From: Sulfurovum sp.
GTDB taxonomy: Bacteria > Campylobacterota > Campylobacteria > Campylobacterales > Sulfurovaceae
Direction: 5' to 3'
Assembly (NCBI GenBank): GCA_013139765.1
Contig: WTAE01000068.1
Coordinates: 1 to 35,870, forward strand
DNA length: 35,870 bases
The position numbers and the translations under genes are program-made. This document shows, one piece after another, positions 47 to 34,551 of the stretch (the first letter of the stretch is position 1; the number at the start of each line of letters is the position of its first letter). The notes beneath the pieces are model-generated. The model worked only from the letters and a program-made list of their open reading frames with translations. It had not been told where the DNA came from and did no database searches.

Positions 47-123
47 GTCAAAGTAGCTCAGCTGGTTAGAGCGCTGGTCTCATAAGCCGGAGGTCGAGGG
101 TTCGAGTCCCTCTTTTGACACCA
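47..123 (+). tRNA. tRNA-Met (anticodon CAT), CCA encoded
   Basis: GTCAAAG acceptor pairs with TTTTGAC; D-arm AGCTCAGCTGGTTAGAGC; anticodon loop CTCATAA; T-arm GAGGGTTCGAGTCCCTC; followed by A-CCA. Confidence 0.97.
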
Positions 124-11251: not shown

Positions 11252-11273
11252 AATTCTTAGGGAGGGGGTCAAA

Positions 11274-11515: not shown

Positions 11516-11605
11516 GTCGGAGGTTTAATAGTGAAGAAACCTTGGAGGTGTGGAGTTTTTATCATGTTGGTGAGGGTAGTGTGCCTTAAAACGTGCCTTT
11601 TCTTC
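11516..11605 (+). repeat. Right core boundary of element A
   Basis: GTCGGAGGTT plus conserved block ending gtagtgtgcc..aaaacgtgcctttt, shared with 28934-29025. Confidence 0.75.
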
Positions 11606-11644
11606 TTTTATATAAAAGCTTAAACTAATATTAAACTATATCTT

Positions 11645-11653
11645 TGCTATACT
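11645..11653 (+). promoter_or_regulatory. Extended -10 promoter upstream of cargo
   Basis: ATATCTTTGCTATACTC, shared with 15230 and 30860. Confidence 0.6.
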
Positions 11654-11682
11654 CTTTTACTCTATATTGGGAGAAAATCAAG

Positions 11683-11805
11683 ATGGAAGAATTCTATGAA
11701 GTAGAACCTACATTAGAGCATTATTGGCAATCTAACATTCTTTCCAAGGCGCTTAATACTTTAGCTATACAAATACTCCAAAGTCATTCAATAGGATTAT
11801 CATGA
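11683..11805 (+). pseudogene. 40-codon leader ORF whose N-terminus is that of the HNH gene at 30956
   Basis: MEEFYEVEPTLEHYWQSNIL... vs MEEFYEVEPTLENYWRSIIL...; ends in ATGA overlap with the WD40 start. Confidence 0.7.
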
Positions 11806-14021: not shown

Positions 14022-14023
14022 TA

Positions 14024-15154
14024 ATGCAAGAAATACTAAAACGACTTGAACTCATTAAAACTGCTATAACTATAGAAGACGAAGAAATCATAGGACTTCA
14101 AATCATAAAATTAAATACATTTACTATAGATAATAAGGTTGAAAAAATAGTTCAACTTCTAGAACTATCTGAATATACAAACGCCGTCAAATATATAGAA
14201 GACTATATAGCGCAATATAATGGTGTCGTAATCTATGAAGACAAAGAGATAAGTGCCCTAAAGCTAGAACTCAAAATGCTTGAACAAAAACTTCAAGTAT
14301 TAAGCGAAGAGCAAACTGAATACCTCAATGAGATCAATGAATTTAATGTTATGTACACTCTTCAGCTTGGAGAAATTATCCGTAAGATACTGGAGCTTAA
14401 AGAGGCATTACTTCAAAGGAAAGTGAATGAGAAGCAAGAGGCATTTGATGAAGTTAAAAATGAGTATGAAGATCTTAAGGAAAAAGTAAGTGATCTTGAA
14501 GATGAATTGAAAAAGCTCGATGAGTTTGATGATGCCTATGATGTACTCTATGAAAAGCTCCAAAATGCTAAAGAACAGCTCAACCAAAAAAGAAAAGAGG
14601 CCAAGCAAGCCAAAGATGCACTTGAAGAAGATGAATTATTTCAGGAATATGAAGAGGCGAGAGAAGACTATGATGAGTTTAGTAAAGAACATGAAGAGAT
14701 CATTTCTCTGGAGCGATTTGAACTTAATGAAGAGGAACAAAAAGAACTAAAAAAACTCTTTAGACAAGCTTCTCGGTTATGCCATCCAGATATTGTTACA
14801 GACGAGCTCAAAGAGCAAGCCCATAAAATCATGGCGCAACTTAATGATGCCTATAAACAAAAAAATCTACAACAGATAAAAAAGATACTTTCATCACTCG
14901 AAAGCGGTATAGTTTTTGATATAGCAAGTGATAAGATAAATAATGTAGAATTACTCAAAACTAAGATCATAGACATAAGACAACAGCTTAGTGCCGTTAC
15001 TGCAGAAGTAGATGAGATACGTAATGATGAAACGTTTAAGACACTTCAAAAGATAGATGATATCGATGAATATTTTTCAGATCTAAAAGAACAATTTCAA
15101 AACCAATATAAAATCTTATCTGATACAGAACAAAACAAAGAAGTTGTATTATAA
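14024..15154 (+). CDS. Coiled-coil protein with J-domain-like segment
   Basis: Long charged coiled coil; LKKLFRQASRLCHPDIVTDELKEQAHKIMAQLNDAYKQKNLQQI has HPD in J-domain context; starts 2 nt after WD40 stop. Confidence 0.7.
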   Translation: MQEILKRLELIKTAITIEDEEIIGLQIIKLNTFTIDNKVEKIVQLLELSEYTNAVKYIEDYIAQYNGVVIYEDKEISALKLELKMLEQKLQVLSEEQTEYLNEINEFNVMYTLQLGEIIRKILELKEALLQRKVNEKQEAFDEVKNEYEDLKEKVSDLEDELKKLDEFDDAYDVLYEKLQNAKEQLNQKRKEAKQAKDALEEDELFQEYEEAREDYDEFSKEHEEIISLERFELNEEEQKELKKLFRQASRLCHPDIVTDELKEQAHKIMAQLNDAYKQKNLQQIKKILSSLESGIVFDIASDKINNVELLKTKIIDIRQQLSAVTAEVDEIRNDETFKTLQKIDDIDEYFSDLKEQFQNQYKILSDTEQNKEVVL

Positions 15155-15214
15155 CAAGAGGCATAAAAAGTTAACAAAATACGTTTAGATGATGAATATT
15201 GGGAAAGTCAATTT

Positions 15215-15316
15215 TTTGAACCATATCTTTGCTATACTCATCCATACTTAATGAAGAGAGAACAAAGTTATATCTTTGTTTTTTTATAATATTAAAACTG
15301 TGATTTGAAATATGCT
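15215..15316 (+). promoter_or_regulatory. Conserved promoter-leader with hairpin/T-tract (copy in A)
   Basis: TTGAACCATATCTTTGCTATACTC...AACAAAGttatatCTTTGTTTTTTT; conserved with 30846-30935. Confidence 0.65.
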
Positions 15317-15365
15317 TAACTAAGGATAGGAGAGAAGACAGAGATGATAAATGGAGAATGTATAA

Positions 15366-18215: not shown

Positions 18216-18362
18216 ATTAGCCTCTTAATATTGCCCCAGTGGACGTTCAGGCTTAATTCTGACCATGCATTATTCAGAAATAAATAATGAATACTGGAGT
18301 GAACCCTTATTAGATTGTGTTAGAATTGTTTTGAGAGGAAAATTATTGAAGGAGGAGAATAA

Positions 18363-18935
18363 ATGAGTGATTCTGATGAATGGTATGCTGCGGCAGCGCG
18401 AGCAACAGGTATAGAAGATCTGGCAGAGGCAGGTGATGCGTATATAGCTAGTTTTGGGGAGGATTCACGTATAGACTATGATAGACTAGAAGAGGGTTGT
18501 ACGGTTAGACTGAATTCAGGCGGCCCTCATATGACGATTAAGCAAATAAATACTTATAGTGAGATAATTTGCATATGGTTTGACAAGAATAATAAACTTC
18601 AAACTTCAGAATTTATAAAGCATGAAATATCTTTGGTTAATGGATATTGTGAAAATGAAAATGATTCTGATTTAGAAAAGGGTGATACCATCAGGTTAAA
18701 TTCAGGAGGACCGCTTATGACTATTAGTGATGAAGTTGATACTGGATATGTTGATGATTATATCTTGACCAGTAAATGGTTTGATAAAAATAATATACTT
18801 CATAGTGCAGAATTTGTTGATAAGACCATAAAGTTTGATAGCAATGACGGAAATGAATTTCACGAACAAGTTTTATATAATGATGAAAATAATATATTGA
18901 AAACAGACACTAGTGAAGATGAAATACCATTTTAA
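18363..18935 (+). CDS. Tandem DUF2158 (YodC-like) protein
   Basis: VRLNSGGPHMTIKQI...CIWFD and IRLNSGGPLMTISDE...SKWFD. Confidence 0.6.
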   Translation: MSDSDEWYAAAARATGIEDLAEAGDAYIASFGEDSRIDYDRLEEGCTVRLNSGGPHMTIKQINTYSEIICIWFDKNNKLQTSEFIKHEISLVNGYCENENDSDLEKGDTIRLNSGGPLMTISDEVDTGYVDDYILTSKWFDKNNILHSAEFVDKTIKFDSNDGNEFHEQVLYNDENNILKTDTSEDEIPF

Positions 18936-18937
18936 AT

Positions 18938-18968
18938 TCCCACGTTCCACAACTTGTGGAACGTGGGA
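18938..18968. terminator. Perfect hairpin after DUF2158 gene
   Basis: TCCCACGTTCCAC-aactt-GTGGAACGTGGGA, no T tract. Confidence 0.5.
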
Positions 18969-19087
18969 AGCAGAAAATATTTAACAAAAAACCATAACCT
19001 TATAAAATATACCTATATAGTACATTTTATAAGGTATTTAAGTCCAGATATAAATTCTTGAAGGGCGGTAGAAGTGTTTTTTTCTTT

Positions 19088-19244
19088 AAAATAACTTTAA
19101 GTATAACTCAAAAAAGTTTGTCCAAGGAAACCTATCTGAAACGACCTTGAAAGTATTCAAAAAAAGACCCGATTTTGGCACAATCCTTTTAATGAAATGC
19201 TGTGTCTATAGGCTTCTATATGACATTGGCAATTCATCTAGCAA
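19088..19244 (+). repeat. Right-end arm of element A
   Basis: aaataactttaa...tgtccaa..aaacctatctgaaac...aaaaaaagacccgattttggcacaat...tctataggcttctat..gacattg...ctagcaa shared with 33890-34045. Confidence 0.85.
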
Positions 19245-19294
19245 TCTCATAAGCCGGAGGTCGAGGGTTCGAGTCCCTCTTTTGACACCACTTA
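19245..19294 (+). repeat. 50-bp att direct repeat copy 2 (A/B junction; tRNA 3' fragment)
   Basis: Exact copy of 78-127 without the tRNA 5' half. Confidence 0.95.
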
Positions 19295-19420
19295 CTTTGA
19301 AGTAACTTCCCTAATTTACTTACATCCTGAAGATTTATCCAAAGTCATAGTACATTTTAATATTTCGATTTTTTGAGTCGGAGGTCTATACTTTTGTCCC
19401 AAAGTTGTCCCACGATATTT
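19295..19420 (+). repeat. Left-end arm of element B
   Basis: Homologous to 128-270 and 34096-34225. Confidence 0.8.
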
Positions 19421-19564
19421 GTAAAGTTTTCCACACCTCTAAATGTGACAGCACCTTTATAGCTTCAAAAGGTTAAGTCAGAAAAATATATGTGAGAGGT
19501 ATAATACTGATGATATTTTATTGATCTTTTAAGTCAGAGAAATAAGTAAAAAAAAAGGTACAAA

Positions 19565-21277
19565 ATGAAGAAAGAGATGTTAGGCTTTTTTAGTGTTGTG
19601 TTATTTTTAGGATTGTCCTCAGTAGGATTTTCTAAAGATACTAATGATACAAAACCCAAATATACTATTGATGATAAAGCTACAATGAATGATACTGATG
19701 CAAGAAATGCTGTAATGGCTTTAAATCATATGCATGCTTCGTTAAATAAAATTGTCATCTACAATGATAAAATAATTTTAGAAGATGAATATAATAATAT
19801 TATAAATAATTTGAATTTAACTGTTATTAAAGATCGTGAAATCGTTGATGTTATAACAAGTATCATGGATACCTTAACTGCTTTTAGGTTGAGTGAGATG
19901 GATAAAGAACAGTTTCAAAAGGAATATGAACATCAATTAGATAATTCTTTAACTGATGCCTTATCTGGTATTAGTGTTAGTGGTCTCAACCCAATACAAA
20001 TGGCTTCTAGTCTAGTTATTAGTGTGGGGAGTTCTTATATGAGTTATCAAAGTCAACAATCTAATCTGAAGATGGGATTAGATAAAAAGAACTGGAAGTT
20101 GAAGAAGGATGAGATATCAGAATTAAATGATATACGGAAAGATTTCCTATTGACCTACTGGCAGATAATGAAAAAATATCATATGCCCGACAAGTGGAGA
20201 ATAACAGAAAGACAATTTACTAGATTTGTTAATATTTTAAAAGATACAGACAACAATAAAAAGCAAAGACAATTATTGAGAATGGAAAAAGAAATGAGTG
20301 TTTTCCCAACGTACTGGTATGAACTTTCTATTGTTGGACACCATAATAAAGATAAAAAAGTTGAGTTATATGCAATGCGTAAATATGAAGAACTTGATGA
20401 TGAGTTGTTAAGACATAATTCTCAGTATAGCTTGATGTTGGCAAATAAAATTACCTATTATGATTTTAAAAATGAAAAAAGTAAAATTACTGAATTATTA
20501 GTAAAAATTGCAGAAGTTGATGCTTTAAATCCTGAGCGAAAATTGTTTTCAGCAATGCAGTATCAATTAATTGGTGACAGTAAAAAATCTGAAAGACTTT
20601 TAAATGAAAATATTGATGATGATTTTTTACCAGTATTAAGTAAAAGGTTAAAAGCCCAGTTGTATTTAAAAGATAATAGAACTGATTTATATAAAGATAT
20701 GATATCTGATTTATTAAAACAACAAAACCTATCTGCTACAGACTACCTATACTATTTAGGAGAGAAACCTTTGCCTCTGATTGTTAAAGAGTTAGAAAAA
20801 GAGATAAAGAAGATTAATATAATTATTAGTAAGAATCTTTATGGTGATGATGATTTAATAATAACATTACCCAAAAAATGGGTTTATCGTGATATTGATA
20901 ATACGGATTTAATTGTGAGTACTAATGAAAAAGATTATAAGTTTACAGAGATTTCCAAGGCTGATGATTATATAGTATATGAATACGAAAATATAATTGA
21001 GCTTGATAAAGTGTTGAATGAAGATATCAAGAATATAGAATTAAAATTGATACATAATGATTTACCAGTTGTGATTAAATATGATATTAAGGTGGATAAA
21101 TCTACTTACAGTAAAGATGATAATAAATCAGGTTGGAGTAGTGTGATATATGATGCTTATGATAAAAGTAAAAAAGTGTATGAAGATCTAAATAAAAAAG
21201 TAGAATTTTCAGCGGTATCTATAACTACAAGAGACCAATGTTTTGATGTTAAGAACTCTTTAAAGTACTGTAAGTGA
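19565..21277 (+). CDS. Secreted hypothetical protein (570 aa)
   Basis: Signal peptide MKKEMLGFFSVVLFLGLSSVGFSKD; overlaps next ORF. Confidence 0.7.
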   Translation: MKKEMLGFFSVVLFLGLSSVGFSKDTNDTKPKYTIDDKATMNDTDARNAVMALNHMHASLNKIVIYNDKIILEDEYNNIINNLNLTVIKDREIVDVITSIMDTLTAFRLSEMDKEQFQKEYEHQLDNSLTDALSGISVSGLNPIQMASSLVISVGSSYMSYQSQQSNLKMGLDKKNWKLKKDEISELNDIRKDFLLTYWQIMKKYHMPDKWRITERQFTRFVNILKDTDNNKKQRQLLRMEKEMSVFPTYWYELSIVGHHNKDKKVELYAMRKYEELDDELLRHNSQYSLMLANKITYYDFKNEKSKITELLVKIAEVDALNPERKLFSAMQYQLIGDSKKSERLLNENIDDDFLPVLSKRLKAQLYLKDNRTDLYKDMISDLLKQQNLSATDYLYYLGEKPLPLIVKELEKEIKKINIIISKNLYGDDDLIITLPKKWVYRDIDNTDLIVSTNEKDYKFTEISKADDYIVYEYENIIELDKVLNEDIKNIELKLIHNDLPVVIKYDIKVDKSTYSKDDNKSGWSSVIYDAYDKSKKVYEDLNKKVEFSAVSITTRDQCFDVKNSLKYCK

Positions 21278-22074
21278 AACTATCTTATTTATTAATTTGT
21301 ATATTATTAGTATCTACTAATGCAGATGCAGATGCAAATGGTAATACTACGTTTCAAGATTTCAATAATGCTACAAAACAACTCCTAAAAAAGGTTTATA
21401 GTAATAATAATGTTGAGAATACAACATTATACTGTCAGGCAAGTTTTAGAGATAGAACCATTACTGATAGCAATGGTTTTCACACTGAAAAATATGCGAA
21501 TAGATTAAATAAAATGGAATGGGAACATATCGTTCCTGCGAAAGAATTTGGTGAAAATATTCCTGAATGGAGAAATAAAAGTACTATATCACTATGTACT
21601 GAGAATGGTTTTGATGGAAGAACTTGTGCTCAACGTTTAAGTACAAATTTTAAATTAATGTTGAGTGATTTATATAATATATATCCTTCTATAGGTGCAT
21701 TAAATGTTTCTAGAATGGATTATGAGTTTATAGAAGGTGATGCAGAAATTTCAATGTTTTCTCGTATAAAACATTATAGCCAGGATGAAGAAAGTTCTTC
21801 TCTTCAGTTTGGTTTGTGTCCCATTATTATTAAAAATCGAAAAGTTATACCCCCTGGTTATTCTAAAGGAATTATTGCTAGAACATATTTATACATGGAT
21901 TCTACATATAGCATATATCGATTAAAATATCAAAAAAAGAAACTCTTTAAATCTTGGAGTAAAGCGTTTCCTGTTACTTCTAATGAGTGTGCGAGAACGA
22001 AGCTTATTGAAAAAATTCAGAAGAATCAAAATAAGATAGTACGAAAGCTTTGTAAGAAAAGTAAAATGTGGTAA
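21274..22074 (+). CDS. Secreted endonuclease I family nuclease
   Basis: GTG start; signal peptide; LYCQASF...KMEWEHIVPAKEFGE...NLYNIYPSIGALN-like core (DLYNIYPSIGALN). Confidence 0.82.
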   Translation: MKLSYLLICILLVSTNADADANGNTTFQDFNNATKQLLKKVYSNNNVENTTLYCQASFRDRTITDSNGFHTEKYANRLNKMEWEHIVPAKEFGENIPEWRNKSTISLCTENGFDGRTCAQRLSTNFKLMLSDLYNIYPSIGALNVSRMDYEFIEGDAEISMFSRIKHYSQDEESSSLQFGLCPIIIKNRKVIPPGYSKGIIARTYLYMDSTYSIYRLKYQKKKLFKSWSKAFPVTSNECARTKLIEKIQKNQNKIVRKLCKKSKMW

Positions 22075-22156
22075 TTGTAGAATGAATATTTTTTTCTCGG
22101 ATTTAATGATATAGTCAATTAAATGACTCACCCCTTGACCCCAGCTATCCCCCCAA

Positions 22157-22224
22157 ATACTTACAAAGCCTCTCAGAGTAGGGCTTTGTGAGTATGTGAC
22201 ATACAACTCAATAGGCCGGAGGTC
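22157..22224 (+). promoter_or_regulatory. Hairpin plus att-like motif, left boundary of element B core
   Basis: ATACTTACAAAGCC...GGCTTTGTGAGTAT then CAACTCAATAGGCCGGAGGTC. Confidence 0.55.
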
Positions 22225-23128
22225 TAGTATTTGGTGTAGTAAGATCATATGGGGAGAGAGGGTATTTTTTTTTGTCACTAGTCCCATATACTCTCACTCT
22301 TCCATCTTCAGCGTTGATGGTGATTCGTGTACGATTTTTATTATTTTTATTATTATGAGTGATGGGAAGTTCGGCATTTTTTACAAAGTCTTCTACTAGT
22401 TTTATGTATTTAGATTGTTCGTCAGTAAGTACTATTTTTTTATCTGAAGGGATAACATGATGAGAAAAACTATTTTTTATCATTTTCTGCAAGATATCTG
22501 CGTTTTTTATCTCCTGCAAGATATCTGCTTTTTTGTCTTCTGCAAGATATCTGCCTGATTTAGCTTTTACAATGGTGTTATTTCCTATCTTCAGGATTTT
22601 TGCAATTTGAGACACACTGCATCCTAGCCGACATGCTTTTCTAATCTTATGCGTACGTAAATCTCTTGATGGTATTAAAGGGTACTTATTATCTAAATCG
22701 GATAGGTATTTCTTGTTGAATTCGTCAATGGTACACATGTTTATGACTTGATCTCTGAACTTTTTTGTTATTTTCCCAATTAGCGTTCTAGAAAAATGTG
22801 TAATAGTATGTATGTCTCTATTGGTATAGCCTTTATTCCATAGATTCTCTATATGCGACTCAATATATTTATCTGTTGTCATGTTTATTGTTGTGTCAAT
22901 CTGGTACTTTTTGCCACATTTATGGTTATCCCCGTAGGTACTCCTATTGAAGTGTCTTTTGCAGTGTATACATTGATAATTGTATCCTTTCTTTACTACT
23001 TGTACTTTATGATCGTTATGTATATCTTTAAATAGAGATCGGCACAGTGAATATGGGCAGAAGTATTTTATATCTGCATACTCATCAATGAGTGATTGCT
23101 CTTTAGTTATCTGTTTTATTTTTGGCAT
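22208..23128 (-). CDS. Zn-ribbon/HTH DNA-binding protein (element chassis gene)
   Basis: Start at MPKIKQITKEQ; YFCPYSLCRSLF...YQCIHCKRHFNRSTY; DIHTITHFSRTLIGKI as in 6174-6785. Confidence 0.7.
   Translation of the reverse strand: MPKIKQITKEQSLIDEYADIKYFCPYSLCRSLFKDIHNDHKVQVVKKGYNYQCIHCKRHFNRSTYGDNHKCGKKYQIDTTINMTTDKYIESHIENLWNKGYTNRDIHTITHFSRTLIGKITKKFRDQVINMCTIDEFNKKYLSDLDNKYPLIPSRDLRTHKIRKACRLGCSVSQIAKILKIGNNTIVKAKSGRYLAEDKKADILQEIKNADILQKMIKNSFSHHVIPSDKKIVLTDEQSKYIKLVEDFVKNAELPITHNNKNNKNRTRITINAEDGRVRVYGTSDKKKYPLSPYDLTTPNTRPPAY
22487..22554. repeat. Three exact 15-bp iteron-like repeats
   Basis: CTGCAAGATATCTGC at 22487-22501, 22514-22528, 22540-22554. Confidence 0.85.
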
Positions 23129-23170
23129 GTAAATATTCTTTTTATATTTATTATACCGTTTTGCCACATA

Positions 23171-23241
23171 AGGTATGCCAAAGCTTCCTGCTTTTGACTT
23201 ATACACTTGATCTGGAATGATAAGTAAGATTTGGCATACCT
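23171..23241. repeat. Inverted repeat upstream of HTH gene, element B
   Basis: AGGTATGCCAAA (23171-23182) / TTTGGCATACCT (23230-23241). Confidence 0.8.
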
Positions 23242-23507
23242 ATCTAACAACGCCCGATATAGCGTTAAATATTGCTATTTTTGTTTGATATTAGATTAAT
23301 ATTTTTTATCCTATAATCCCCTTATCAATCAGCTGATTGTCCCACTCATATGTGGTAATTACATCAAAGAAGACGGAGAGTATTTATAGAATATTCTGCT
23401 GAATCTATGATTGCTGAGATTTTGGAGATTAGCTATCTTCATTCCTTATAGTATGAAAACGTATCATACTGTAGCTATTTAATGCATAAATGCAAAAAGG
23501 TTCCATA

Positions 23508-24008
23508 ATGAACAATACAGAAGTAAAAAAAATAGATTCAACAAGCATAACTATTAACAATACAATAGATGATAAATATAAATACAGTCATATAAGCCAA
23601 AAACAGATCTTCGATAGAACCAGTAACAGTGTTTCAGGGTTCGTAGTTTTATCTACACCTACATTTAAAAAACAGGACTGGATCAGTGTTCGTAAACTAA
23701 TGGATATCAATTCTAAAATTGATAAACTACCTCTAGACTATGCTTTAAAAGCAACAATTAAAGGTGATTATGATGAAAGTAAAAAACCGCAAGATGGTAA
23801 AGCTCTTCATCTTACTCTTGATGGCGATAATTATAAATTTGAGATATATACTCAAGTATATGGCAGAGAGTGGCAATCAAGTCATACACATACAATAGAT
23901 AAAGCGTTATTTAACGCCTATGTTATAGTTGTTCATAATGATATTGCTGTGAATGAAGCTGAAAAAGATCAGAAATCTCCTGATGACTTCTCTCTTAATT
24001 TGGAGTAG
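23508..24008 (+). CDS. Hypothetical protein encoded just upstream of PolB
   Basis: Start MNNTEVKKIDS; 3-nt gap to the polymerase ORF. Confidence 0.6.
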   Translation: MNNTEVKKIDSTSITINNTIDDKYKYSHISQKQIFDRTSNSVSGFVVLSTPTFKKQDWISVRKLMDINSKIDKLPLDYALKATIKGDYDESKKPQDGKALHLTLDGDNYKFEIYTQVYGREWQSSHTHTIDKALFNAYVIVVHNDIAVNEAEKDQKSPDDFSLNLE

Positions 24009-24011
24009 TCA

Positions 24012-25028
24012 ATGAAAACCCCAAAAATTAATTGGGTATCTGACTTCCCTGATGGGGAGTTGGAAAAATATATACCCAGTGGAGAAGAGACAGTCCTTGT
24101 AGCCATTGATACAGAGTACACCAGACATTCAGAGTTTTCTAACCTTTGTCTGTCGTACCAATTTTCTGTCTTGGACTGTGCTACAGGTAACTATATGAAA
24201 AAGATCTATTATCCTGAGCTAGTGACTGAAGTACGCTTGACCCTTAAAGAGATACTGTTGCAGGTGTTTAGAATGATGAGTATCTCTTCCCGTAAAATGA
24301 ATGGTTATCACGTAATGTTTATTTGCCACTTCTGCTCTGCTGAGTGGGCTATGATGCATGATCGAAAAGAGACTTCAAAATATTTAGAATTTCTCTATAA
24401 AACGGTGATTACTTTTAAACCAATAGAGGTTACCTTTGAAGATTCAGAGGGAGTCTCTTGCGCAATAACATTTGAAGTAGGTGACACTATGTTGTTGTTG
24501 CCTCCTACACATCGATCTTTGGAGAAAGCTTCTTCTCTGCTAGATGAGAAGTTTCATAAGAAGGAACTGACTCAATTTGAAAAAGAGCATATGAATAGTC
24601 TACTTCAGACTGATCCTGAACGTTTTTATGAATATGCCATACATGATGCTGATATTACCTTGCGTTTATTCATCAAGCTACAGTACACACTCAATAAGAT
24701 GAATGGTAGCGAAAATACAAGATACACAACGATAGGTAGTGCTACGGTCAAGCACTTTGTTAAAGCTATGGATAAAAAGATATTCAAATCCCAGTTCTCA
24801 AAGCGTAACAAGATATATCAAGATGGTTTGAATCTTGCTAAACGTGCCTACATGGGTGGTTTGAACAGTTCTTACTTTGTAGGTGAACTTGAAGGTGAAC
24901 TCTTCATTGATGCGGATTTTTCTGGAGCCTACCCTACAGTAATGAATTTACTTGAAGTCAGTGATTTTGGTAAACCTATCGTGAAAGTGAAAGATGATCC
25001 TTTCTCGTTAGGAGATATAGATGATTGA
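24012..25028 (+). CDS. Family-B DNA polymerase, segment 1 (exonuclease and motif A)
   Basis: LVAIDTEYT (Exo I), YAIHDADIT (Exo III), DADFSGAYPTVM (motif A). Confidence 0.8.
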   Translation: MKTPKINWVSDFPDGELEKYIPSGEETVLVAIDTEYTRHSEFSNLCLSYQFSVLDCATGNYMKKIYYPELVTEVRLTLKEILLQVFRMMSISSRKMNGYHVMFICHFCSAEWAMMHDRKETSKYLEFLYKTVITFKPIEVTFEDSEGVSCAITFEVGDTMLLLPPTHRSLEKASSLLDEKFHKKELTQFEKEHMNSLLQTDPERFYEYAIHDADITLRLFIKLQYTLNKMNGSENTRYTTIGSATVKHFVKAMDKKIFKSQFSKRNKIYQDGLNLAKRAYMGGLNSSYFVGELEGELFIDADFSGAYPTVMNLLEVSDFGKPIVKVKDDPFSLGDIDD

Positions 25029-25893
25029 AAAATTTAAGAAGGTCTTGGAAGAGTTTGATGGTACACGTTTACCAATAGCTTTTACAGACATTACTTTTAA
25101 ATTCCCTGTAGATACACTCTATCCAAATTTGTGCGTACACCATGCCAAGTATGGGCTTTTAAATCCGTTAGAGGGTAGAACGGTTGCTACGATTGCCGAG
25201 ATACACTTGGCTCTTTATCTTGGTGCCACTATTGAGTACCATGAAGCTTTTGTGGTGGATTCTTTAGATAATGGTTCTTACGTATTTAGAGAACATTTAC
25301 GTTTTCTCATTATGGCAAGAAGTGAAGCTAAAAAAGTAGATGATGAACTCCTGCAACAAATGTTGAAATTGTATGTCAATACCCTTTATGGAAAAGTAGC
25401 TCAGGGTATCACACCTAAAAAGAGTTTTGATCTACGTGATGGTGATACTAAAGAGTTGGGTGCTTCTCAAGTAACTCAACCTTATTTTGCTGCCATGATC
25501 ACTGGTACGCTTAGAGCTGGACTTTCTGCTTTATTAGTAGCAATGGATGAACTCAATAAAGAGGGTCACTCTTATGTACCTATCTCAGCCACCACGGATG
25601 GAGTTCTCTATCAGGTAGGTGACAAGAATGGTGTGAAGTTTGAACAATGTCTGAAGGTTAAGAGTGAAGATATTTTTGAAACAGTCAAAGGTGGTGGAAA
25701 TATCTTCAAACCTTTTGCCCAAGCTGATCCTGTTCTATACAAAAAGCTCCAAGAATTTCCCGTTCTAAGATTGTTAGAACAGTCTCGTAAAGCATGGGGT
25801 TTTGATGAATATATAGAGATTAAACATGCTGTCAATGAAGTGTTGAATATAAAAACACGTGGACAGATCGGAGCGTATCGTGCGAAAGAATAA
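25021..25893 (+). CDS. Family-B DNA polymerase, segment 2 (motifs B and C)
   Basis: KLYVNTLYGKVAQG (motif B), SATTDGVLYQ (motif C); overlaps segment 1 at ATGATTGA. Confidence 0.8.
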   Translation: MIEKFKKVLEEFDGTRLPIAFTDITFKFPVDTLYPNLCVHHAKYGLLNPLEGRTVATIAEIHLALYLGATIEYHEAFVVDSLDNGSYVFREHLRFLIMARSEAKKVDDELLQQMLKLYVNTLYGKVAQGITPKKSFDLRDGDTKELGASQVTQPYFAAMITGTLRAGLSALLVAMDELNKEGHSYVPISATTDGVLYQVGDKNGVKFEQCLKVKSEDIFETVKGGGNIFKPFAQADPVLYKKLQEFPVLRLLEQSRKAWGFDEYIEIKHAVNEVLNIKTRGQIGAYRAKE

Positions 25894-26593
25894 TAAAATC
25901 ATATATCCACTTCTAGCAAAGGTCGGTCATAAGCTTGAAGGAGATAAAGAGTCCCAAGCCAAAGAGCTTTGGGAACATTATCACGATGAAGAGATTCAAA
26001 CGTATGAGATGAAACGTTTGTCTACATTCCAAGATATACTTGATTCCAAGTCTCTTATTGAAGATATTGTGATGTTGCAGCAGACGCGCAAATATAGTTT
26101 GGATTTTGACTATAAGCGTAAACCGATAGAAGGTGGAGGAACAGTACCACATAAACATGTGGATGATATTGTTCGCTATAGAGGTGTTGTAGGAAATTTT
26201 CGTGAGAAAAAGAAGATAAGAGCCACTCCTGAAAAAGTGGAATATTATCAAGCACGTGCTAAACAGAATGTACGAAGTAGAGGTACGAATAAAGAAGATT
26301 GTTTAAGACATTTTTTAAGAGCATTGACACAGTGTGTGTATCCATTTAAATCCTATGATGGGTATGTAGATATTGTAAAGAAACTGAAGAGTTTTGATGT
26401 CACAATTGATAAGTTAAAGAATGCTAGACGTACTCCCTTTGTAGCACAGGTAGTTATGAACAATAGCAGTAATCGGAGTTATGTTCGGAAGATGCTTAAA
26501 GCTTTAGGATATCCCAGTGATGATAATTACAAAGAATGGATTGACTTATTGATGCACAAGGGATTGAGTAATCCTGTCACTATGTATGACTAG
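25859..26593 (+). CDS. Family-B DNA polymerase, segment 3 (C-terminal), GTG start
   Basis: Overlaps segment 2 in the next frame; IYPLLAKVGHKLEGDK continuation. Confidence 0.6.
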   Translation: MDRSERIVRKNNKIIYPLLAKVGHKLEGDKESQAKELWEHYHDEEIQTYEMKRLSTFQDILDSKSLIEDIVMLQQTRKYSLDFDYKRKPIEGGGTVPHKHVDDIVRYRGVVGNFREKKKIRATPEKVEYYQARAKQNVRSRGTNKEDCLRHFLRALTQCVYPFKSYDGYVDIVKKLKSFDVTIDKLKNARRTPFVAQVVMNNSSNRSYVRKMLKALGYPSDDNYKEWIDLLMHKGLSNPVTMYD

Positions 26594-26600
26594 AGACCCC

Positions 26601-26643
26601 AGTCAACGATACTACATGTATGTGTAGTATCGTTGACTTTTTA
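26601..26643 (+). terminator. Intrinsic terminator after PolB operon
   Basis: AGTCAACGATACTACA-tgtatg-TGTAGTATCGTTGACT plus T tract. Confidence 0.85.
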
Positions 26644-26707
26644 ATGACATAAAAAGAATTATTAGAAAAAAAACAAACATATATTATAAATACGAAAGGA
26701 GGCTAAC

Positions 26708-27913
26708 ATGCCAATCGTAACAAAACAAAAAATAACAACCACACCGAAACAGAGAAACAAGCTTTTAGTTGAACACCCTCAAATGGATGCCATAATCAAA
26801 AGTGTTAGAACTTATGTGACTAATGGGATGATACACATGGATTACAGAGTTCACTATGACTACAGAGTAGGTGGTAAAGACCGTACAAGATTTAGTACCG
26901 GGATTGCCTATTCAAAAAGAGCCATACAAAGAGTTGAACGAGAGATGTTTTCTGCAGCCTTGGAGCATTATTTACAAACTACAAATATTATGGATGGAGC
27001 AAGTCTTAGAGTAGGAGATATTGCATTGGATGCTATCAATGAAGACAAAGGTAATAGACAAGATGATGTACACAATGATTACCTAAAAATCTATGATGTA
27101 TATATCAAACCTATATTTGAATATTGCATCTTAAATGAGGTAAAGGTATCAGATGTTAAGGCATGGAAAAATAACTTACTTGAGACACATGCTTTAAGTA
27201 GGTCACGATATCTAAAGTATGCAAGAGTTTTGAGTTTCATATTTAAATTTGCAATGGAAAATGAAATGATAGATAAGAACCCTGCATCTTTGGTAGATAA
27301 GAAGTCTAAACTCTTCACTAAATCTAAGCGGAATCAGAGTGAAAAATATTATACATCCTCGGAGGCTAAACTGATGATAAAGAAGTCTGAAGGATGGTTT
27401 AGAATAATGTTGCTCACTTACTTGAATACCGGTATCCGTACAGGAGAAGGATTGAGTTTAAAGTGGTCAGATATAAACTTTGAGAAGCGTACTGTCACCA
27501 TACAGAGAAGTATGCGAAAAGGTAACTTGAAGGAAGGTACTAAAACTGGCAAAGATAGAGAGATTAGACTACCTTTACCACTAAGTGATGAATTACTTGC
27601 CTACAAAGAAATTTGTACAAGTGATATATGGTTATTTCCTAATGAAACAACAGGTAAACCGTACTTTGAATCGAATTCTATTATTAAGTGGTATTTCAAA
27701 CCACTTTTAAAGAGTTGTAATATAGAGTATAAAACACTCTATGCCTTGCGCCATACTTTTGCAAGCCTCTCTGCACAACAGAACATTCCAATGAGTTTAA
27801 TATCCAAGGTTCTTGGGCATTCATCTGTAAATGTGACGATGTCGTTTTACATCAAGAATAATATTATGGCAGATGATGAAAATAGTGACATCTTTGACAA
27901 ACTATATGCTTAA
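26708..27913 (+). CDS. Tyrosine recombinase/integrase (element B)
   Basis: TGIRTGE, ALRHTFASL, LGHSSVNVTMSFY; strongly similar to integrase A, identical C-terminus ADDENSDIFDKLYA. Confidence 0.95.
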   Translation: MPIVTKQKITTTPKQRNKLLVEHPQMDAIIKSVRTYVTNGMIHMDYRVHYDYRVGGKDRTRFSTGIAYSKRAIQRVEREMFSAALEHYLQTTNIMDGASLRVGDIALDAINEDKGNRQDDVHNDYLKIYDVYIKPIFEYCILNEVKVSDVKAWKNNLLETHALSRSRYLKYARVLSFIFKFAMENEMIDKNPASLVDKKSKLFTKSKRNQSEKYYTSSEAKLMIKKSEGWFRIMLLTYLNTGIRTGEGLSLKWSDINFEKRTVTIQRSMRKGNLKEGTKTGKDREIRLPLPLSDELLAYKEICTSDIWLFPNETTGKPYFESNSIIKWYFKPLLKSCNIEYKTLYALRHTFASLSAQQNIPMSLISKVLGHSSVNVTMSFYIKNNIMADDENSDIFDKLYA

Positions 27914-27923
27914 TTAAACTAAC

Positions 27924-27962
27924 TACCGCTGCACTTGTAGCGGTACAGTCCTTCTTTTTTTT
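27924..27962 (+). terminator. Intrinsic terminator after integrase B
   Basis: TACCGCTGC...GTAGCGGTA plus T-rich tract. Confidence 0.65.
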
Positions 27963-28055
27963 AAACTACAAAAACGCATTGTTGGAATATATATTAGAAA
28001 TGAGAATACTATGGGCACTCTCCTATGGTATATCTTTTTTATACAAGGAGTATCT

Positions 28056-28364
28056 ATGGGTACTTTTACAAGATTAGAAAAACTGTGGAAACCTAAACAT
28101 TTTGAATATTTACTTTATTGTTTGAAGTATTGCCAATCCTACTTTGAAGACCATTTTAAATATCAGGAAAGAAGAGGGGGTACACTTATGGTAGATGGCG
28201 AAGTCTATACACAAAATGACCTCATTAAAATTCTGAGTGAATACTATGAAGACAGCAGTAGTAAGTACCAAAGTGAATTTGGAGATACCCTCTATCTATT
28301 CTTTACTGATTTGGTTGAGGATGATGTAGATATCCTTAGTGAGCTTGATGATGAGGTTGGATGA
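28056..28364 (+). CDS. Conserved acidic chassis protein of unknown function
   Basis: MGTFTRLEKLWKPKHFEYLLYCLKYCQSYFEDHFKY, homolog of 10934-11251. Confidence 0.75.
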   Translation: MGTFTRLEKLWKPKHFEYLLYCLKYCQSYFEDHFKYQERRGGTLMVDGEVYTQNDLIKILSEYYEDSSSKYQSEFGDTLYLFFTDLVEDDVDILSELDDEVG

Positions 28365-28726
28365 TGATTGAGATAATGTATCCCAACGATATAGAGAAGA
28401 TCATTTCACCCAAAATACAGGCTTATTTATATAAACGCTTTAAAGAAATAGACTATTCATTGATACCACATATTGAGGGATATTTTCTTTATGTTAAAGA
28501 CTTCTCATTACTGCACGAAAGTCATCGGTTGAATCATCTAATATTACCTTCCATTTCAGAGGGATTATTTGATCATGTTGAAGGTGTATCAATAGAGGGG
28601 GATATTGTAGAAGTTTCACTAGTCTATAATAATTCCTTTCTTATGTCTCTAGTCTTTAATGGATTGGATGAAAAGAGTTTAGAAATTGTGACAAAGGAGG
28701 GAAAGGATGAAAAAAGAGACATCTGA
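28361..28726 (+). CDS. Hypothetical protein (121 aa)
   Basis: ATGA-type overlaps with neighbours on both sides. Confidence 0.6.
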   Translation: MMIEIMYPNDIEKIISPKIQAYLYKRFKEIDYSLIPHIEGYFLYVKDFSLLHESHRLNHLILPSISEGLFDHVEGVSIEGDIVEVSLVYNNSFLMSLVFNGLDEKSLEIVTKEGKDEKRDI

Positions 28727-28829
28727 AAAAGATGGATGCAGTGTTGTGGTACTTGAGATAGCTATTGCAATAGGAGTAATGGTAGTAAGTTGTATGATGA
28801 GCAAGAAGGAAAAAAGGGAGGAGACTTAG
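28707..28829 (+). CDS. 40-aa single-TM small protein (not in ORF track)
   Basis: MKKETSEKDGCSVVVLEIAIAIGVMVVSCMMSKKEKREET; GGAGG RBS; homolog of 11274-11384. Confidence 0.75.
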   Translation: MKKETSEKDGCSVVVLEIAIAIGVMVVSCMMSKKEKREET

Positions 28830-28933
28830 TTCTCACCTTTTTCTTTTTGGTGTAGTAAGGGTGTATGGGGAGAGAGTATTTTTTTATTTTTTTTGTTTAG
28901 GGAGATAGTAAAATGATAACTTTCTGTAGATGA

Positions 28934-29025
28934 GTCGGAGGTTTAGTAGTAAATAAGCCTCGTATGTGTGGAGTTGTTGTCATATTGGTGAGTGTAGTGT
29001 GCCTAAAAACGTGCCTTTTTTCTCA
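28934..29025 (+). repeat. Right core boundary of element B
   Basis: GTCGGAGGTT block homologous to 11516-11605. Confidence 0.75.
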
Positions 29026-29182
29026 AGAAGAAGAAAATTATAATCAAATGAAAACCTTATAAACTGAAATATTACCTATTTTCGTCAATATCAAGACATA
29101 TTCGATATACTCTTAGCACTGAAATATGGGAATAAAAGGACATTATGTTCCTTGAATAAATGATTAGTATCCAAGGATATGA

Positions 29183-29944
29183 ATGCGGAATAAACGAATA
29201 AAAATAAGTAAGTGTCGAGTTATTTTTTTCGATCTTGAGTTTTATGTACCAGAAAATAGCCGCTCTAAAATTGGTTTTTGCTACAATCCATGGGATAAGG
29301 GATCTAAGATCTTGGGCGGTTCATTTTTAATAGCAAATCCAGAAAAAGACTTTGGCATAACAGAATATGATGTTCATAAAAAAACCAAATCATTCTGGAT
29401 CTGGAACCATGAATCAGAAAAGGATTTATTGCTACAAATATATAACACACTTAAAAGTGCTTATGACATGGTGCGAAATGCACATGACGGAGCGGTATCA
29501 CCAATTTTATGCGGCATTGGAATAACATCTTCTGACATACCTATACTTTTTGAATTATTCAAAAGATTTCAAATATTAACAAATTCTGAAGCATTTTCTT
29601 TTCAGAATGGATTCAGAGTTATTGATCTATCGCAGTTGTCAGTGGCAACGTTTAATAATTCTAACAATTTTCTTTACCCAAAGACAAAGAGTCACATTTT
29701 AAACAAATACTTGCCTGACACGAAATTTGAAACAGGAAAAAGTGTATGGCAGCTTTACGAGTCAGAGGATTACGAAGGAATTCAGGCTAGAGTTTTAAGT
29801 GAAGTCGCCTCTACTCACCGATGCTACGAATTAATAAAATCAGATTTAGATCAATTTAAATATCTTGAGTTTGATTATAAGAAATATAAAAAACTAAAGC
29901 GCAAATTGGAGGAAAAACTTGATAGTCTAAGAAAAGGACATTAA
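29183..29944 (+). CDS. Possible DEDD-type 3'-5' exonuclease-like protein
   Basis: VIFFDLEFYV (DxE), CGIGITSSDIPIL; motif-level only. Confidence 0.4.
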   Translation: MRNKRIKISKCRVIFFDLEFYVPENSRSKIGFCYNPWDKGSKILGGSFLIANPEKDFGITEYDVHKKTKSFWIWNHESEKDLLLQIYNTLKSAYDMVRNAHDGAVSPILCGIGITSSDIPILFELFKRFQILTNSEAFSFQNGFRVIDLSQLSVATFNNSNNFLYPKTKSHILNKYLPDTKFETGKSVWQLYESEDYEGIQARVLSEVASTHRCYELIKSDLDQFKYLEFDYKKYKKLKRKLEEKLDSLRKGH

Positions 29945-30075
29945 TTCATCAAAGTCATATAAAATTTCTTAAGATATGTAATTTTCATAAAAGTGGTAAG
30001 GTAAGTGAAATTCTTAATTTAAAGAACTTTTTCTTGACTTGATTTTTTTCGAGAATCCACATTATGTAAACTATC

Positions 30076-30130
30076 AAATCCCGTAAACAAGATACTTTAA
30101 GTTTAAACGGGATTTTTCCAAGCTTAAAGT
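30076..30130 (+). other. Potential H-type pseudoknot / terminator
   Basis: AAATCCCGT/ACGGGATTT and ACTTTAAG/CTTAAAGT arms interleaved. Confidence 0.35.
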
Positions 30131-30292
30131 AAAAATCTATACCCCGTATTTACGCACTTTCTCGTTTAAGAATTCAAAATTTTCTCGTGAACCTTAAGTG
30201 AAATTCTATGGTTTAGTAACCTCTTAAAAATATATTTTAGTTACTATTAGAGAATAGGCTATTATGTTAATCAATAATGGGTAATAGGTAAT

Positions 30293-30649
30293 TTAAATTT
30301 GTCCATGACGTATATTTAAATCTAAACTAGCTTTAGGCATTTGCCCCCAATCAACTTCTCTTGAGCCTAATCCACATCCAGCTATACTGCTTCCTTTACG
30401 GCTAGTAAGAGAGGTAAGCCTTGAATTGCTAAACCATGCTGTCATGTAACTACATTGTCCATATCCAACAACTTCTGAATATTGCCATGCTTCGCCAGAT
30501 CCTCTAAAAGATCTTGTGTCTGGTGTTCCAAGCATTGTTTTAACCTGTTGTTTAGACATTCCTGGTTCTAAGTTAAGTGAGTTATTTGTAATTGAACCGC
30601 AGCCTGAGAGAAAAATGGAGATTACCATGAAGATAAAACTTTTGAACAT
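30293..30649 (-). CDS. SmpA/BamE-like lipoprotein
   Basis: Lipobox LSGC; LEPGMSKQQVKTMLGTPDTRSFRGSGEAWQY. Confidence 0.6.
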   Translation of the reverse strand: MFKSFIFMVISIFLSGCGSITNNSLNLEPGMSKQQVKTMLGTPDTRSFRGSGEAWQYSEVVGYGQCSYMTAWFSNSRLTSLTSRKGSSIAGCGLGSREVDWGQMPKASLDLNIRHGQI

Positions 30650-30845
30650 TTTTATTCCTATACTCTAATTTATATTTTTGCATATTTGTTGGCCTATTAT
30701 ATCAGAATATATTCAATTGTTTTTGGATTTTATTTTGGTTCAAGGACAAAAAATGATATAAATTATTTACATTAATTTTCTAGAATTGGCATTATGTTAA
30801 TTAACAGATATCTCATAATCGTTTTCCTAACATTCTAAGTCAATC

Positions 30846-30935
30846 TTGAACCATATCTTTGCTATACTCTTCCATACTCAATAACAGAGAGAACAAGATT
30901 ATATCTTTGTTTTTTCACAATATTAAAAATGTGAT
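30846..30935 (+). promoter_or_regulatory. Conserved promoter-leader with hairpin/T-tract (copy in B)
   Basis: Matches 15215-15316. Confidence 0.65.
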
Positions 30936-30955
30936 TGGAAACGTAATAAATTAAT

Positions 30956-31975
30956 ATGGAAGAATTTTATGAAGTTGAACCTACATTAGAGAATTATTGG
31001 AGATCTATCATTCTCTTTGGAAGAAATGTAGCGTCCTATAAATTTGCTTTAGCAAAGGCTTTATATGATTTAAAAGCTTCTCCAAATGATTTGATCACTT
31101 TAGAAGAACTTGCAAAAGCATTTGTCAAGCATCTCCTCGAACATCTTGAACATAGTCCTAAACAAATCACTTCTCAAAGTAGTAGATTTTTAAAAGCTTG
31201 TCAACAATACTCTCAAAATGAAATATCTTATGATCGATTGCTTGATCAGACCGTTAAGCTTGGCTTTCAAAATGTTATTGATGCATTCCACAATGTACAT
31301 TCTAAAGAAATCTCAAAACGTTTTTTTATAGATGAAAGAAATACATCAAAAGGGATACGAATAACAGATAACCTCTATCAATTAGCAGAGATGAATAAGT
31401 TTTCGGATTTAAATTTAGAAACAGAATCTAGATGGAGATTGGTTGAGACTGGATGGAAGTTAGGTATTTCTAGACAACTGATAAATGTTAGTTATGATGA
31501 TGAGACACAAGAGTTGTTTATTGAAGATAATGATAGACGCATAAATATTACATCTAGTCGTGAAAGTTTAAATGGTTATCAGAAGGGACGCTGCTTTTAT
31601 TGTTATGATGATATCTCTATTGATAGTAATGATGAAAATTTAGCAGACATAGATCACTTTTTCCCATGGGTTTTAAAAGATATCATTCCAAATATCAATG
31701 GTGTATGGAACTTGGTATTAGCATGTAAAAGTTGTAATAGGGGTGAATTTGGGAAATTTGATCGGCTTCCTTCATTAAATCTCTTAGAACGTTTAGACAA
31801 AAGAAATGAATATTTGATAGGTAGTCATTTACCTCTACGTGAAACCTTACTTCAACAGACAGGTAAAAATGCAAAAAAACGGCATAATTTTTTACAGAGT
31901 CAATATAATACTGGTAAAATTAATATAATACATACATGGGAGCCTCTAACCATTAGAGGTATTATCACATTTTAG
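30956..31975 (+). CDS. HNH endonuclease
   Basis: CFYCYDDI...ADIDHFFPW...NLVLACKSCNRGEFGKF. Confidence 0.85.
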   Translation: MEEFYEVEPTLENYWRSIILFGRNVASYKFALAKALYDLKASPNDLITLEELAKAFVKHLLEHLEHSPKQITSQSSRFLKACQQYSQNEISYDRLLDQTVKLGFQNVIDAFHNVHSKEISKRFFIDERNTSKGIRITDNLYQLAEMNKFSDLNLETESRWRLVETGWKLGISRQLINVSYDDETQELFIEDNDRRINITSSRESLNGYQKGRCFYCYDDISIDSNDENLADIDHFFPWVLKDIIPNINGVWNLVLACKSCNRGEFGKFDRLPSLNLLERLDKRNEYLIGSHLPLRETLLQQTGKNAKKRHNFLQSQYNTGKINIIHTWEPLTIRGIITF

Positions 31976-31984
31976 GAGAAAACA

Positions 31985-32566
31985 ATGGATACTGTAAAGT
32001 TTTATGATTCAAATGCAAAAGATTTTTTTGAATCAACGTATGCAGTAGATATGTTAGATGTGTATAAAAAGTTTGAAACAGATATAAATCCCCACTCGAG
32101 AATACTTGATGCTGGTTGTGGTTCAGGGCGTGATACAAAATATTTCTTAGATCATGGACATGATGTTGTAGCAATAGATGCATCAAAAGAGATGGTAAAG
32201 TTAGCAAGAGAATTAACTAAAATAGACGTCAAGCATATGACTTTTCAAGAAATGAAATATGTAGAAGATTTTGATGCTATATGGAGCTGTGCATCATTAT
32301 TACATATTAAAAAAAGTGAAATACCGTTAGTTTTTTCAAAATTCATCCAAGCATTAAAGGTTCATGGTGTTTGGTATATGTCTTTTAAAATGGGAGAAAG
32401 TGAGAGAGAAAAGGATGGTAGGTTATTTAATGACTATACAATAGGAACGTTAAAAGAGATATTCAAATCATATGATGAATTGAGTGTGTGTGATATCTGG
32501 ATTACTGAGGATAGAAGAGAAGATAGAGAAGATAAGTGGATTAATGCAATAGTTAAAAAAATCTAA
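31985..32566 (+). CDS. Class I SAM-dependent methyltransferase
   Basis: ILDAGCGSGRDTKYFLDHGHDVVAIDAS. Confidence 0.88.
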   Translation: MDTVKFYDSNAKDFFESTYAVDMLDVYKKFETDINPHSRILDAGCGSGRDTKYFLDHGHDVVAIDASKEMVKLARELTKIDVKHMTFQEMKYVEDFDAIWSCASLLHIKKSEIPLVFSKFIQALKVHGVWYMSFKMGESEREKDGRLFNDYTIGTLKEIFKSYDELSVCDIWITEDRREDREDKWINAIVKKI

Positions 32567-32587
32567 AAGAACAAGGTAGGATGATTT

Positions 32588-33841
32588 ATGGCTTCAGAAT
32601 ATCAAAATACTAAAAAATCAGAAGTTCCTTTTGGTTTAAAAGATGGAGTTTTATATGAACCTTCACAGGTCGACCGTGGTCGAGCATGCAATTGTATTTG
32701 TCCCTCTTGCAAGAAACCATTAATAGCAAAAAAAGGTGAGATAAGAAAAAAACATTTTACTCATGATATTAATACTTCTTGTCAAACGGGTAAAGAAACT
32801 GCTATTCATCTTGCTGCAAAACAAATTATTTCTCAAACAAAAACTGTATGCTTACCATCAATAGAGCTTAATGGGGATCCCCAACCGTATGGAAAAGTTA
32901 TTTTTGACAAGATTATTTTGGAAAAATCTATACCTGAATTGAAAGAACAAATGACTGTTATACCCGATATTACAGCAACACTGAATCGTGGGAATAAAGT
33001 AAAAGATCTATATATTGAGATTGCTGTTACACACTTCACTGAAGAAGAGAAGATAGATGTGCTTAGAAAAAATAAGTTTTCAGCAATAGAAATAGATTTA
33101 AGTTCCTTATATAATGAAGTCCATATAGATTTCGCAGTGATCGAGAATATTATAATGAATGGTGAATATACTACTTGGATTTATAATCAGATAATTGAAG
33201 ATGAAAAAGAGCGTATTAGAATAGAAGATGAAAAACATAGACAGAGGTTAGATCATCTTGTCAGTGAAAAACGCGATAAGATGAAAAAGTTGATTGATTT
33301 ATACAATGGAGAAAAAAAACTTAAATTAGATACAAATAAATGGGATAAGACATTATTAGAATATTCAAAGAAAGCATTAAAAATAAATAGTTTAGATGAG
33401 TTACCTAGATTCATTACTCAATCTTGTGACATTGATGCACTATATCCTCTTGATGGTAGAATGGTAAGACTTTATATATATGAAAATTTTGTTTTAACAA
33501 GAGAAAATATACCTAAATTGAAAGATCGTGCTTTTGGTGCAAAGAGTGTTATTCAGTATTTAAAAAAGGATAAAAAAATGTATCCAAATAGTTTTATATA
33601 TGATTGGTATAAACTTTATAAAACAGAAGATGGTTTTTATCCGGATGAAATAAGTATAGACAGAGACATTCCGAATTTCAATTCTGAGAAAATTATTTCT
33701 GATTATTTATATTCATTAACTCTCGATGGAGTTCTCAAATATGTAGGTAGATATTTTTATAAATTACCGAATTCAAATGAACATGAGGGTACAAGAAAAC
33801 ATCAAGGTGCATATAATATTCATACAGGTGAGTTTTATTAA
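32588..33841 (+). CDS. CoiA-like protein (Zn finger plus nuclease-like domain)
   Basis: CNCICPSCKKPLIAKKGEIRKKHFTH; VIPDITATLNRGNKVKDLYIEIAVTH. Confidence 0.6.
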   Translation: MASEYQNTKKSEVPFGLKDGVLYEPSQVDRGRACNCICPSCKKPLIAKKGEIRKKHFTHDINTSCQTGKETAIHLAAKQIISQTKTVCLPSIELNGDPQPYGKVIFDKIILEKSIPELKEQMTVIPDITATLNRGNKVKDLYIEIAVTHFTEEEKIDVLRKNKFSAIEIDLSSLYNEVHIDFAVIENIIMNGEYTTWIYNQIIEDEKERIRIEDEKHRQRLDHLVSEKRDKMKKLIDLYNGEKKLKLDTNKWDKTLLEYSKKALKINSLDELPRFITQSCDIDALYPLDGRMVRLYIYENFVLTRENIPKLKDRAFGAKSVIQYLKKDKKMYPNSFIYDWYKLYKTEDGFYPDEISIDRDIPNFNSEKIISDYLYSLTLDGVLKYVGRYFYKLPNSNEHEGTRKHQGAYNIHTGEFY

Positions 33842-33889
33842 GTTCATGTGGAATCTTTCTTACTCATAGAAGTAGTTTTTGTTGCTTTC

Positions 33890-34045
33890 AAATAACTTTA
33901 AACATTGTTCAAAAAAGTGTGTCCAAATAAACCTATCTGAAACAACATTGAAAGCCTCCAAAAAAAGACCCGATTTTGGCACAATAGTTTTCATGAAACA
34001 CCGTTTCTATAGGCTTCTATAGGACATTGTCAGTTCGTCTAGCAA
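33890..34045 (+). repeat. Right-end arm of element B
   Basis: Homologous to 19088-19244. Confidence 0.85.
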
Positions 34046-34095
34046 TCTCATAAGCCGGAGGTCGAGGGTTCGAGTCCCTCTTTTGACACCACTTA
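34046..34095 (+). repeat. 50-bp att direct repeat copy 3 (right end of B; tRNA 3' fragment)
   Basis: Exact copy of 78-127 without the tRNA 5' half. Confidence 0.95.
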
Positions 34096-34225: not shown

Positions 34226-34551
34226 ACTAAATATGGATTCCCCCCTCTAGTATAATCTACTGTTTCAAGAATGAAGTAACTCAATTATTATCGTGCTTAT
34301 CCTATTCTGTAGCTACTGTTCATGTATCAAGAATGGCTAATGTAGACAGTATTAATATCTTTGTATACATCTCTGTAGAAATAAGATATAGAGGCTTAAA
34401 ATGCCTTCTCATAATAAAGCTTTGATACCTTATAAAATGAGCTATATAGAATATTTTATAAGGTTTCCCATGGGAGAATGACAAAAGAGGACTCTCAACG
34501 TCTCTATAGTGTATAACCTTATAAAATATGTTAGATTATAAGGTTTTGAAA

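Follow-up and report, generated by a model that had tools for sequence, protein, structure and literature searches.

A pipolin carrying a primer-independent-type family-B DNA polymerase probably divided into separate subunits

The replication gene of a pipolin integrated at a tRNA-Met gene of Sulfurovum sp. most likely encodes a family-B DNA polymerase (PolB) of primer-independent type that has turned into a multi-subunit enzyme. We analysed a contig of 35,870 nucleotides (WTAE01000068.1, assembly GCA_013139765.1), referred to here at its full length as the window, in which this polymerase extends over three overlapping open reading frames (ORFs; Table 1). The split polymerase is probably a real multi-part enzyme, not a broken gene, and the first of its two cuts is shared with related elements in other families. 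As judged from sequence, what appears to be new is a pipolin lineage whose primer-independent PolB (piPolB) is split within the palm and, in the window, broken further.

Table 1. Features of the pipolin, its polymerase and its integration site in the window
Feature	Position	Strand	Detail or basis
tRNA-Met(CAT)	47..123	+	Integration target; 3' part is left att site (78-127); ARAGORN
Middle att copy	19245..19294	+	Pipolin left end and neighbour element right end
Pipolin	19295..34095		14.8 kb between att copies; att copies, Pfam
Divergent DNA-binding-like protein	22208..23206	-	Zn-finger/HTH-like; PHROG HTH match
172-aa protein	23490..24008	+	No assigned function; immediately upstream of ORF1
Shine-Dalgarno GGAG	24002..24005	+	6 nt before ORF1
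PolB ORF1	24012..25028	+	338 aa; exonuclease domain and N-terminal palm half with motif A
Motif A, DFSGAYP	24915-24935	+	ORF1 302-308
Shine-Dalgarno AGGAG	25010..25014	+	6 nt before ORF2, within ORF1 end
PolB ORF2	25021..25893	+	290 aa; fingers and remaining palm; motifs B/C, KTRG
Junction 1, ATGATTGA	25021..25028	+	ORF2 start overlaps ORF1 stop
Motif B, KLYVNTLYG	25366-25392	+	ORF2 116-124
Motif C, TTDG	25591-25602	+	ORF2 191-194
KTRG	25852-25863	+	ORF2 278-281
GGAG	25870..25873	+	6 nt before GTG 25880, within ORF2 end
PolB ORF3	25880..26593	+	237 aa from GTG; C-terminal, thumb-side part
Tyrosine recombinase	26708..27913	+	Pipolin integrase; Phage_integrase 2.6e-20 (Pfam)
Right att copy	34046..34095	+	Pipolin right end

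Polymerase ORFs and motifs

An earlier note on this DNA had described a family-B DNA polymerase at 24012-26593 running over three overlapping ORFs; it placed the exonuclease motifs together with motif A on ORF1, assigned motifs B and C to ORF2 and left the C-terminal rest to ORF3. The ORF coordinates agreed with the first of these statements and an alignment with the second. ORF1 carries Exo I (DTE, residues 33-35) and Exo III (YAIHD, residues 208-212) and retains the invariant GGLNSSY, and the exonuclease and polymerase motif residues of the window polymerase are intact. Pfam DNA_pol_B_2 matched ORF2 above the cut-off (E 8e-8). A protein read through both junctions aligned with single-ORF piPolBs, with zero residues lost at the junctions. 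Counted from the motif A aspartate (D302), the first split comes 36 residues later, at the end of the 338-residue ORF1, and the motif B lysine is about 115 residues further on. The second split lies 9 residues past KTRG, which we read as the palm/thumb border.

As had been noted, the frame changes by +1 at both junctions. A stop codon immediately precedes the ORF2 ATG and closes the ORF2 frame upstream, so that the ORF1 and ORF2 frames share only the 8-nt ATGATTGA; similar 8-nt gene overlaps also occur in the neighbouring tandem element. For ORF3, a GTG start as first proposed is retained at a different codon: GTG 25880 is the likelier, with GGAG at 6 nt, whereas the noted GTG 25859 (frame 25859-26593, 244 aa) has none. 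An intein or intron at the junctions was ruled out, as the ORFs overlap directly.

AlphaFold modelled the exonuclease domain of ORF1 with reasonable confidence (pLDDT block means of about 66-87 over residues 20-230), and this model matched DnaQ, RNase T and E. coli Pol II. The half palms were of low confidence for subunits taken singly, with shallow alignments, and the model of an ORF2-type subunit, at a mean pLDDT of 45.5, was not good enough for a structure search. Because the alignments were shallow, this low confidence does not imply that the half palms depend on a partner.

Assignment to the primer-independent group

Membership of the piPolB subgroup, which could not be confirmed by eye in the earlier note, was borne out by a piPolB-type motif C and by phylogeny. 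By these two lines of evidence, the window polymerase is assigned to the primer-independent type, and its primer independence is predicted on the same grounds. piPolBs lack the first aspartate of motif C (PMC7544198). At this motif the window has TTDG and the plasmid relatives have [VT]TDG, whereas phi29, PRD1, E. coli Pol II and T4 have DTDS. The plasmid matches found by tblastn included polymerases of Fusobacterium and Staphylococcus, the full-length ones being single ORFs of about 1000-1100 aa.

In a tree of 17 polymerases, which included the window and 12 relatives and from which the E. coli reference piPolB was absent, the window and these relatives formed a single clade (98/97), separate from protein-primed and RNA-primed PolBs. 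Long branches surround this node, which we take as support, short of proof. The phylogeny that had been proposed as a check thus grouped the window polymerase with plasmid piPolB-type proteins, not with protein-primed PolBs: it falls outside the phi29/PRD1 branch, with TTDG rather than DTDS as motif C, and no terminal protein was recognised in Pfam and PHROG scans. Pfam scans covering the main ORFs of the window gave no Cas1, which would mark a casposon, and recovered tyrosine recombinases instead. The single chain that was a feature of all earlier piPolBs examined, although not part of a formal definition, is replaced by three ORFs in the window and by two in three relatives. Searches of solved structures by sequence gave weak matches only, with DNA polymerase alpha matched by a single-ORF relative.

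A pipolin and its tandem neighbour

The pipolin-like context recognised in the earlier note was confirmed by the piPolB-type motif C and phylogeny, the tyrosine recombinase and the tRNA-Met att repeats. The 14.8-kb element is a pipolin because its piPolB-type gene, tRNA att repeats and tyrosine recombinase fit the published description of a PolB gene, tRNA att repeats and a tyrosine recombinase (PMC7385651). The att site is a perfect 50-nt repeat (100% identical) of the tRNA-Met 3' end, found at 78, 19245 and 34046, and its 30-nt core has three occurrences in the genome assembly, all inside the window. By Pfam, the cargo comprises an endonuclease I-type nuclease, an HNH nuclease, a methyltransferase, a CoiA-N protein and genes without assignment.

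Several pipolin proteins recur in the related loci described below. The integrase is 48-49% identical to those in the same place in the two Sulfurospirillum loci. In alignments, the divergent DNA-binding-like protein is kept near the polymerase in related loci (25-28% identity), and the 172-aa protein sits just ahead of ORF1 in 4/4 loci, with 15-21% identity and a common C-terminal pattern. Homology of the 172-aa protein to the small upstream protein of Helicobacter-type elements was unsupported (hhalign probability 0.1).

The att copies outline two tandem elements, one of 19.2 kb with a primase and a DUF5906 helicase and one of 14.8 kb with the polymerase, and their tyrosine recombinases are related (77% nucleotide identity over 300 nt). 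The neighbour (128-19294), at the same tRNA-Met, has its integrase at 9451-10803 and its replication genes at 7045-7974 (primase), 7967-8173 (68-aa ORF) and 8166-9491 (DUF5906 helicase); among its cargo genes are those for a DNA cytosine methylase, a UvrD-type helicase and a WD40 repeat protein. The pair appears to represent a replication-module swap between cousin elements. An empty integration site was not found in genus relatives probed with the right flank. A dispersed repeat of about 120 bp at 34424-34550, with both-strand matches at its start, occurs in many genomes of the genus.

Conservation of the first split

We searched about 400 genomes of the order and found two further split loci, L013 and L014, both in the Sulfurospirillum sp. 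UBA1314 MAG; a family-level search added one more, L036, in a genome of a different family (G682). In all three, ORF1 (345-358 aa) and ORF2 (528-541 aa) overlap by a 4-nt ATGA, and the split falls at the identical protein position as in the window. The comparison of split points suggested in the earlier note found junction 1 in three related loci. An integrase follows the polymerase in each, truncated in G682 where the contig stops. Identity to the window is 51-54% for ORF2 and 41-43% for ORF1, and ORF2 begins with M-I-x-x-F in 4/4 split loci. By eye, the helix corresponding to the ORF2 start seems to be present in the Pseudosulfitobacter sister described next, with the break just before this older helix.

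In the tree, the four split loci formed one clade (100/99) inside the piPolB-type clade, with Pseudosulfitobacter as sister (99/99); like every other piPolB found, this sister is or once was a single ORF. A four-locus clade with a sister of single-ORF type is consistent with an ancestral single ORF that was split once. Relative to ORF1, the window has ORF2 in frame +1 and the three relatives have it in frame +2, and a stop/start overlap is present at junction 1 in all four loci. An overlap that is conserved while the frame is not argues for separate genes with translational coupling, not for programmed frameshifting or a shared error. An assembly error in a single ORF at junction 1 was likewise rejected on the four loci. 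The genuine split that the earlier note had listed among its options is thus well supported at junction 1, which three related loci share in a different frame.

The first split spans four loci, three families and one order, all in draft genomes. A weak Shine-Dalgarno precedes ORF2 in L013, and the tRNA-Met 3' sequence of the window is also found near both Sulfurospirillum copies. The dN/dS of 0.09 for the Sulfurospirillum ORF2 pair points to purifying selection on that pair, most other pairs being saturated at silent sites. Such elements were rare: of the Campylobacterales genomes that we searched, three contained full loci and one a remnant, and relatives were absent from viral contigs and phage records in profile or sequence scans. 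In the literature searched, which did not cover all journals, we found no paper on a split piPolB.

The two Sulfurospirillum loci (L013 12349-14969 and L014 7744-10394) have amino-acid identities of 64% in ORF1 and 95% in ORF2, whereas identity over the opening 40 codons of ORF2 is 65%. This pattern suggests that elements with different first subunits exchanged most of the second. In L036 (55-5574), two caspase-like peptidase genes adjoin the split polymerase cassette and are possibly defence cargo.

The second split and alternative explanations

The second split occurs in the window alone, as ORF2 and ORF3 are fused in one frame in the three relatives. We put ORF3 as a genuine third subunit at about even odds and slightly favour its translation from its own GTG and entry into the complex, a recent frameshift being nearly as likely. 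A serious contender, if somewhat short of probable, is that junction 1 is a genuine two-subunit split and junction 2 a recent frameshift, by mutation or assembly error, in a two-subunit piPolB that is either dying or intact but misread. Such a frameshift would agree with the fusion of this region in the three relatives, in a frame of 528-541 aa, and also with the alignment running through junction 2 without loss and with the origin of the window in a draft of 262 contigs that is 88.5% complete. However, ORF3 has a GGAG placed 6 nt before GTG 25880, an arrangement that only about 3-4% of random indels should produce: when one-base indels were simulated in window genes, a Shine-Dalgarno-preceded start was left anywhere in 4.1% and near the stop in 2.6%. 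This GGAG favours a usable ORF3 start, although it is a single case and may in part reflect the coding sequence. ORF3 is also about as conserved (41-43%) as ORF1 (43%), and neither ORF has an internal stop.

Decay of the whole gene, with the three ORFs as pseudogene fragments, is very unlikely. piPolB decay does happen: genome G422, which is 99% complete, has a C-terminal polymerase remnant (L023 8064-8609) near a tRNA array with the same tRNA-Met, and no other polymerase part was found there; Pseudosulfitobacter copies are interrupted by IS66. Against decay in the window, junction 1 is common to four loci in three families, the motif residues are intact and the Sulfurospirillum ORF2 pair appears to be under purifying selection.

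It is very unlikely that the functions have separated, with ORF1 acting as a stand-alone exonuclease and ORF2 in a role other than that of a polymerase. ORF1 does have an exonuclease domain that is modelled confidently on its own and resembles DnaQ and RNase T, but GGLNSSY and the motif A residues in ORF1 only make sense with motif C, ORF2 retains motifs B and C, and gene order and overlap are conserved.

Programmed ribosomal frameshifting into one full-length polymerase, another option in the earlier note, is the least probable and was not borne out: the sequence is contiguous with single-ORF homologues and AGGAG lies upstream of the stop, as does the Shine-Dalgarno-like element in prfB frameshifting, but the frame change differs between loci (the main ground for rejection), the stop directly before the ORF2 ATG leaves just 8 nt for a shift in the window, no conserved slippery sequence is apparent and the AGGAG spacing suits initiation at the ATG.

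Proposed mechanism and implications

Starting from what can be read directly in the loci (the conserved split, intact motifs, coupled gene order and pipolin setting), we propose co-translation, assembly into one palm and primer-free replication of the element. A ribosome ending ORF1 would restart at once on ORF2, by means of the stop/start overlap and the Shine-Dalgarno inside ORF1. Both halves would be produced together and fold into a single palm, in which one polypeptide contributes the catalytic aspartate of motif A and another that of motif C. Once assembled, the enzyme would need no primer to begin DNA synthesis and would replicate the element after its excision. In the window only, the third ORF, with the thumb-side part and its own GTG, may join the complex. 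More tentatively, this may be a pipolin lineage with an obligate trans-assembled piPolB, three-part here, whose assembly could switch primer-free synthesis.

Self-priming DNA polymerases are rare, and all of those examined outside the split clade are single chains, now or formerly. If our reading is correct, a natural, conserved break between catalytic motifs would mean that a self-priming polymerase can work as an assembled complex. Controlled DNA amplification would gain a polymerase that is already split, and one could then ask by experiment whether primer-free synthesis in the cell is limited by assembly. Annotation pipelines that seek one full-length piPolB may overlook such elements.

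Comparison with known systems

Like E. coli pipolins (PMC7385651), the element has a PolB without the first motif C aspartate, a tyrosine recombinase, variable cargo and terminal direct repeats at a tRNA gene. It differs in its target, tRNA-Met here and tRNA-Leu in E. coli, and in a polymerase of two ORFs (relatives) or three (window) where E. coli pipolins have one. The piPolB-type plasmids of Staphylococcus (pSE-12228-03), Fusobacterium and Helicobacter share a homologous PolB with [VT]TDG as motif C, but their polymerase is a single ORF of about 1000-1100 aa, and they are small and frequently carry genes for a serine recombinase or Mob. The Pseudosulfitobacter plasmid PolB (NZ_CP087043), sister of the split clade, has an adjoining integrase as here; by contrast, it was apparently once a single ORF and is now broken by IS66 soon after the position of split 1. 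The IS66-interrupted gene is found in 30 Pseudosulfitobacter plasmid records (L035 9821-15365).

Split archaeal PolBs (Methanothermobacter, Nanoarchaeum) are also encoded by two genes, but they are host replicases with distant genes and other break points. The T4-like polymerase of Aeromonas phage 25 is split into gp43A and gp43B, which co-purify and are active (PMC2988022), a precedent for the mechanism proposed here. In the phage 25 record (DQ529280), gp43A runs on for about 110 residues past motif A, and the start of gp43B precedes motif B. The gp43A/gp43B pair of T4-like Aeromonas phages is, like the polymerase described here, a family-B polymerase broken between motif A and motif B, although it is an RNA-primed PolB of a lytic phage and has an endonuclease gene between its parts.
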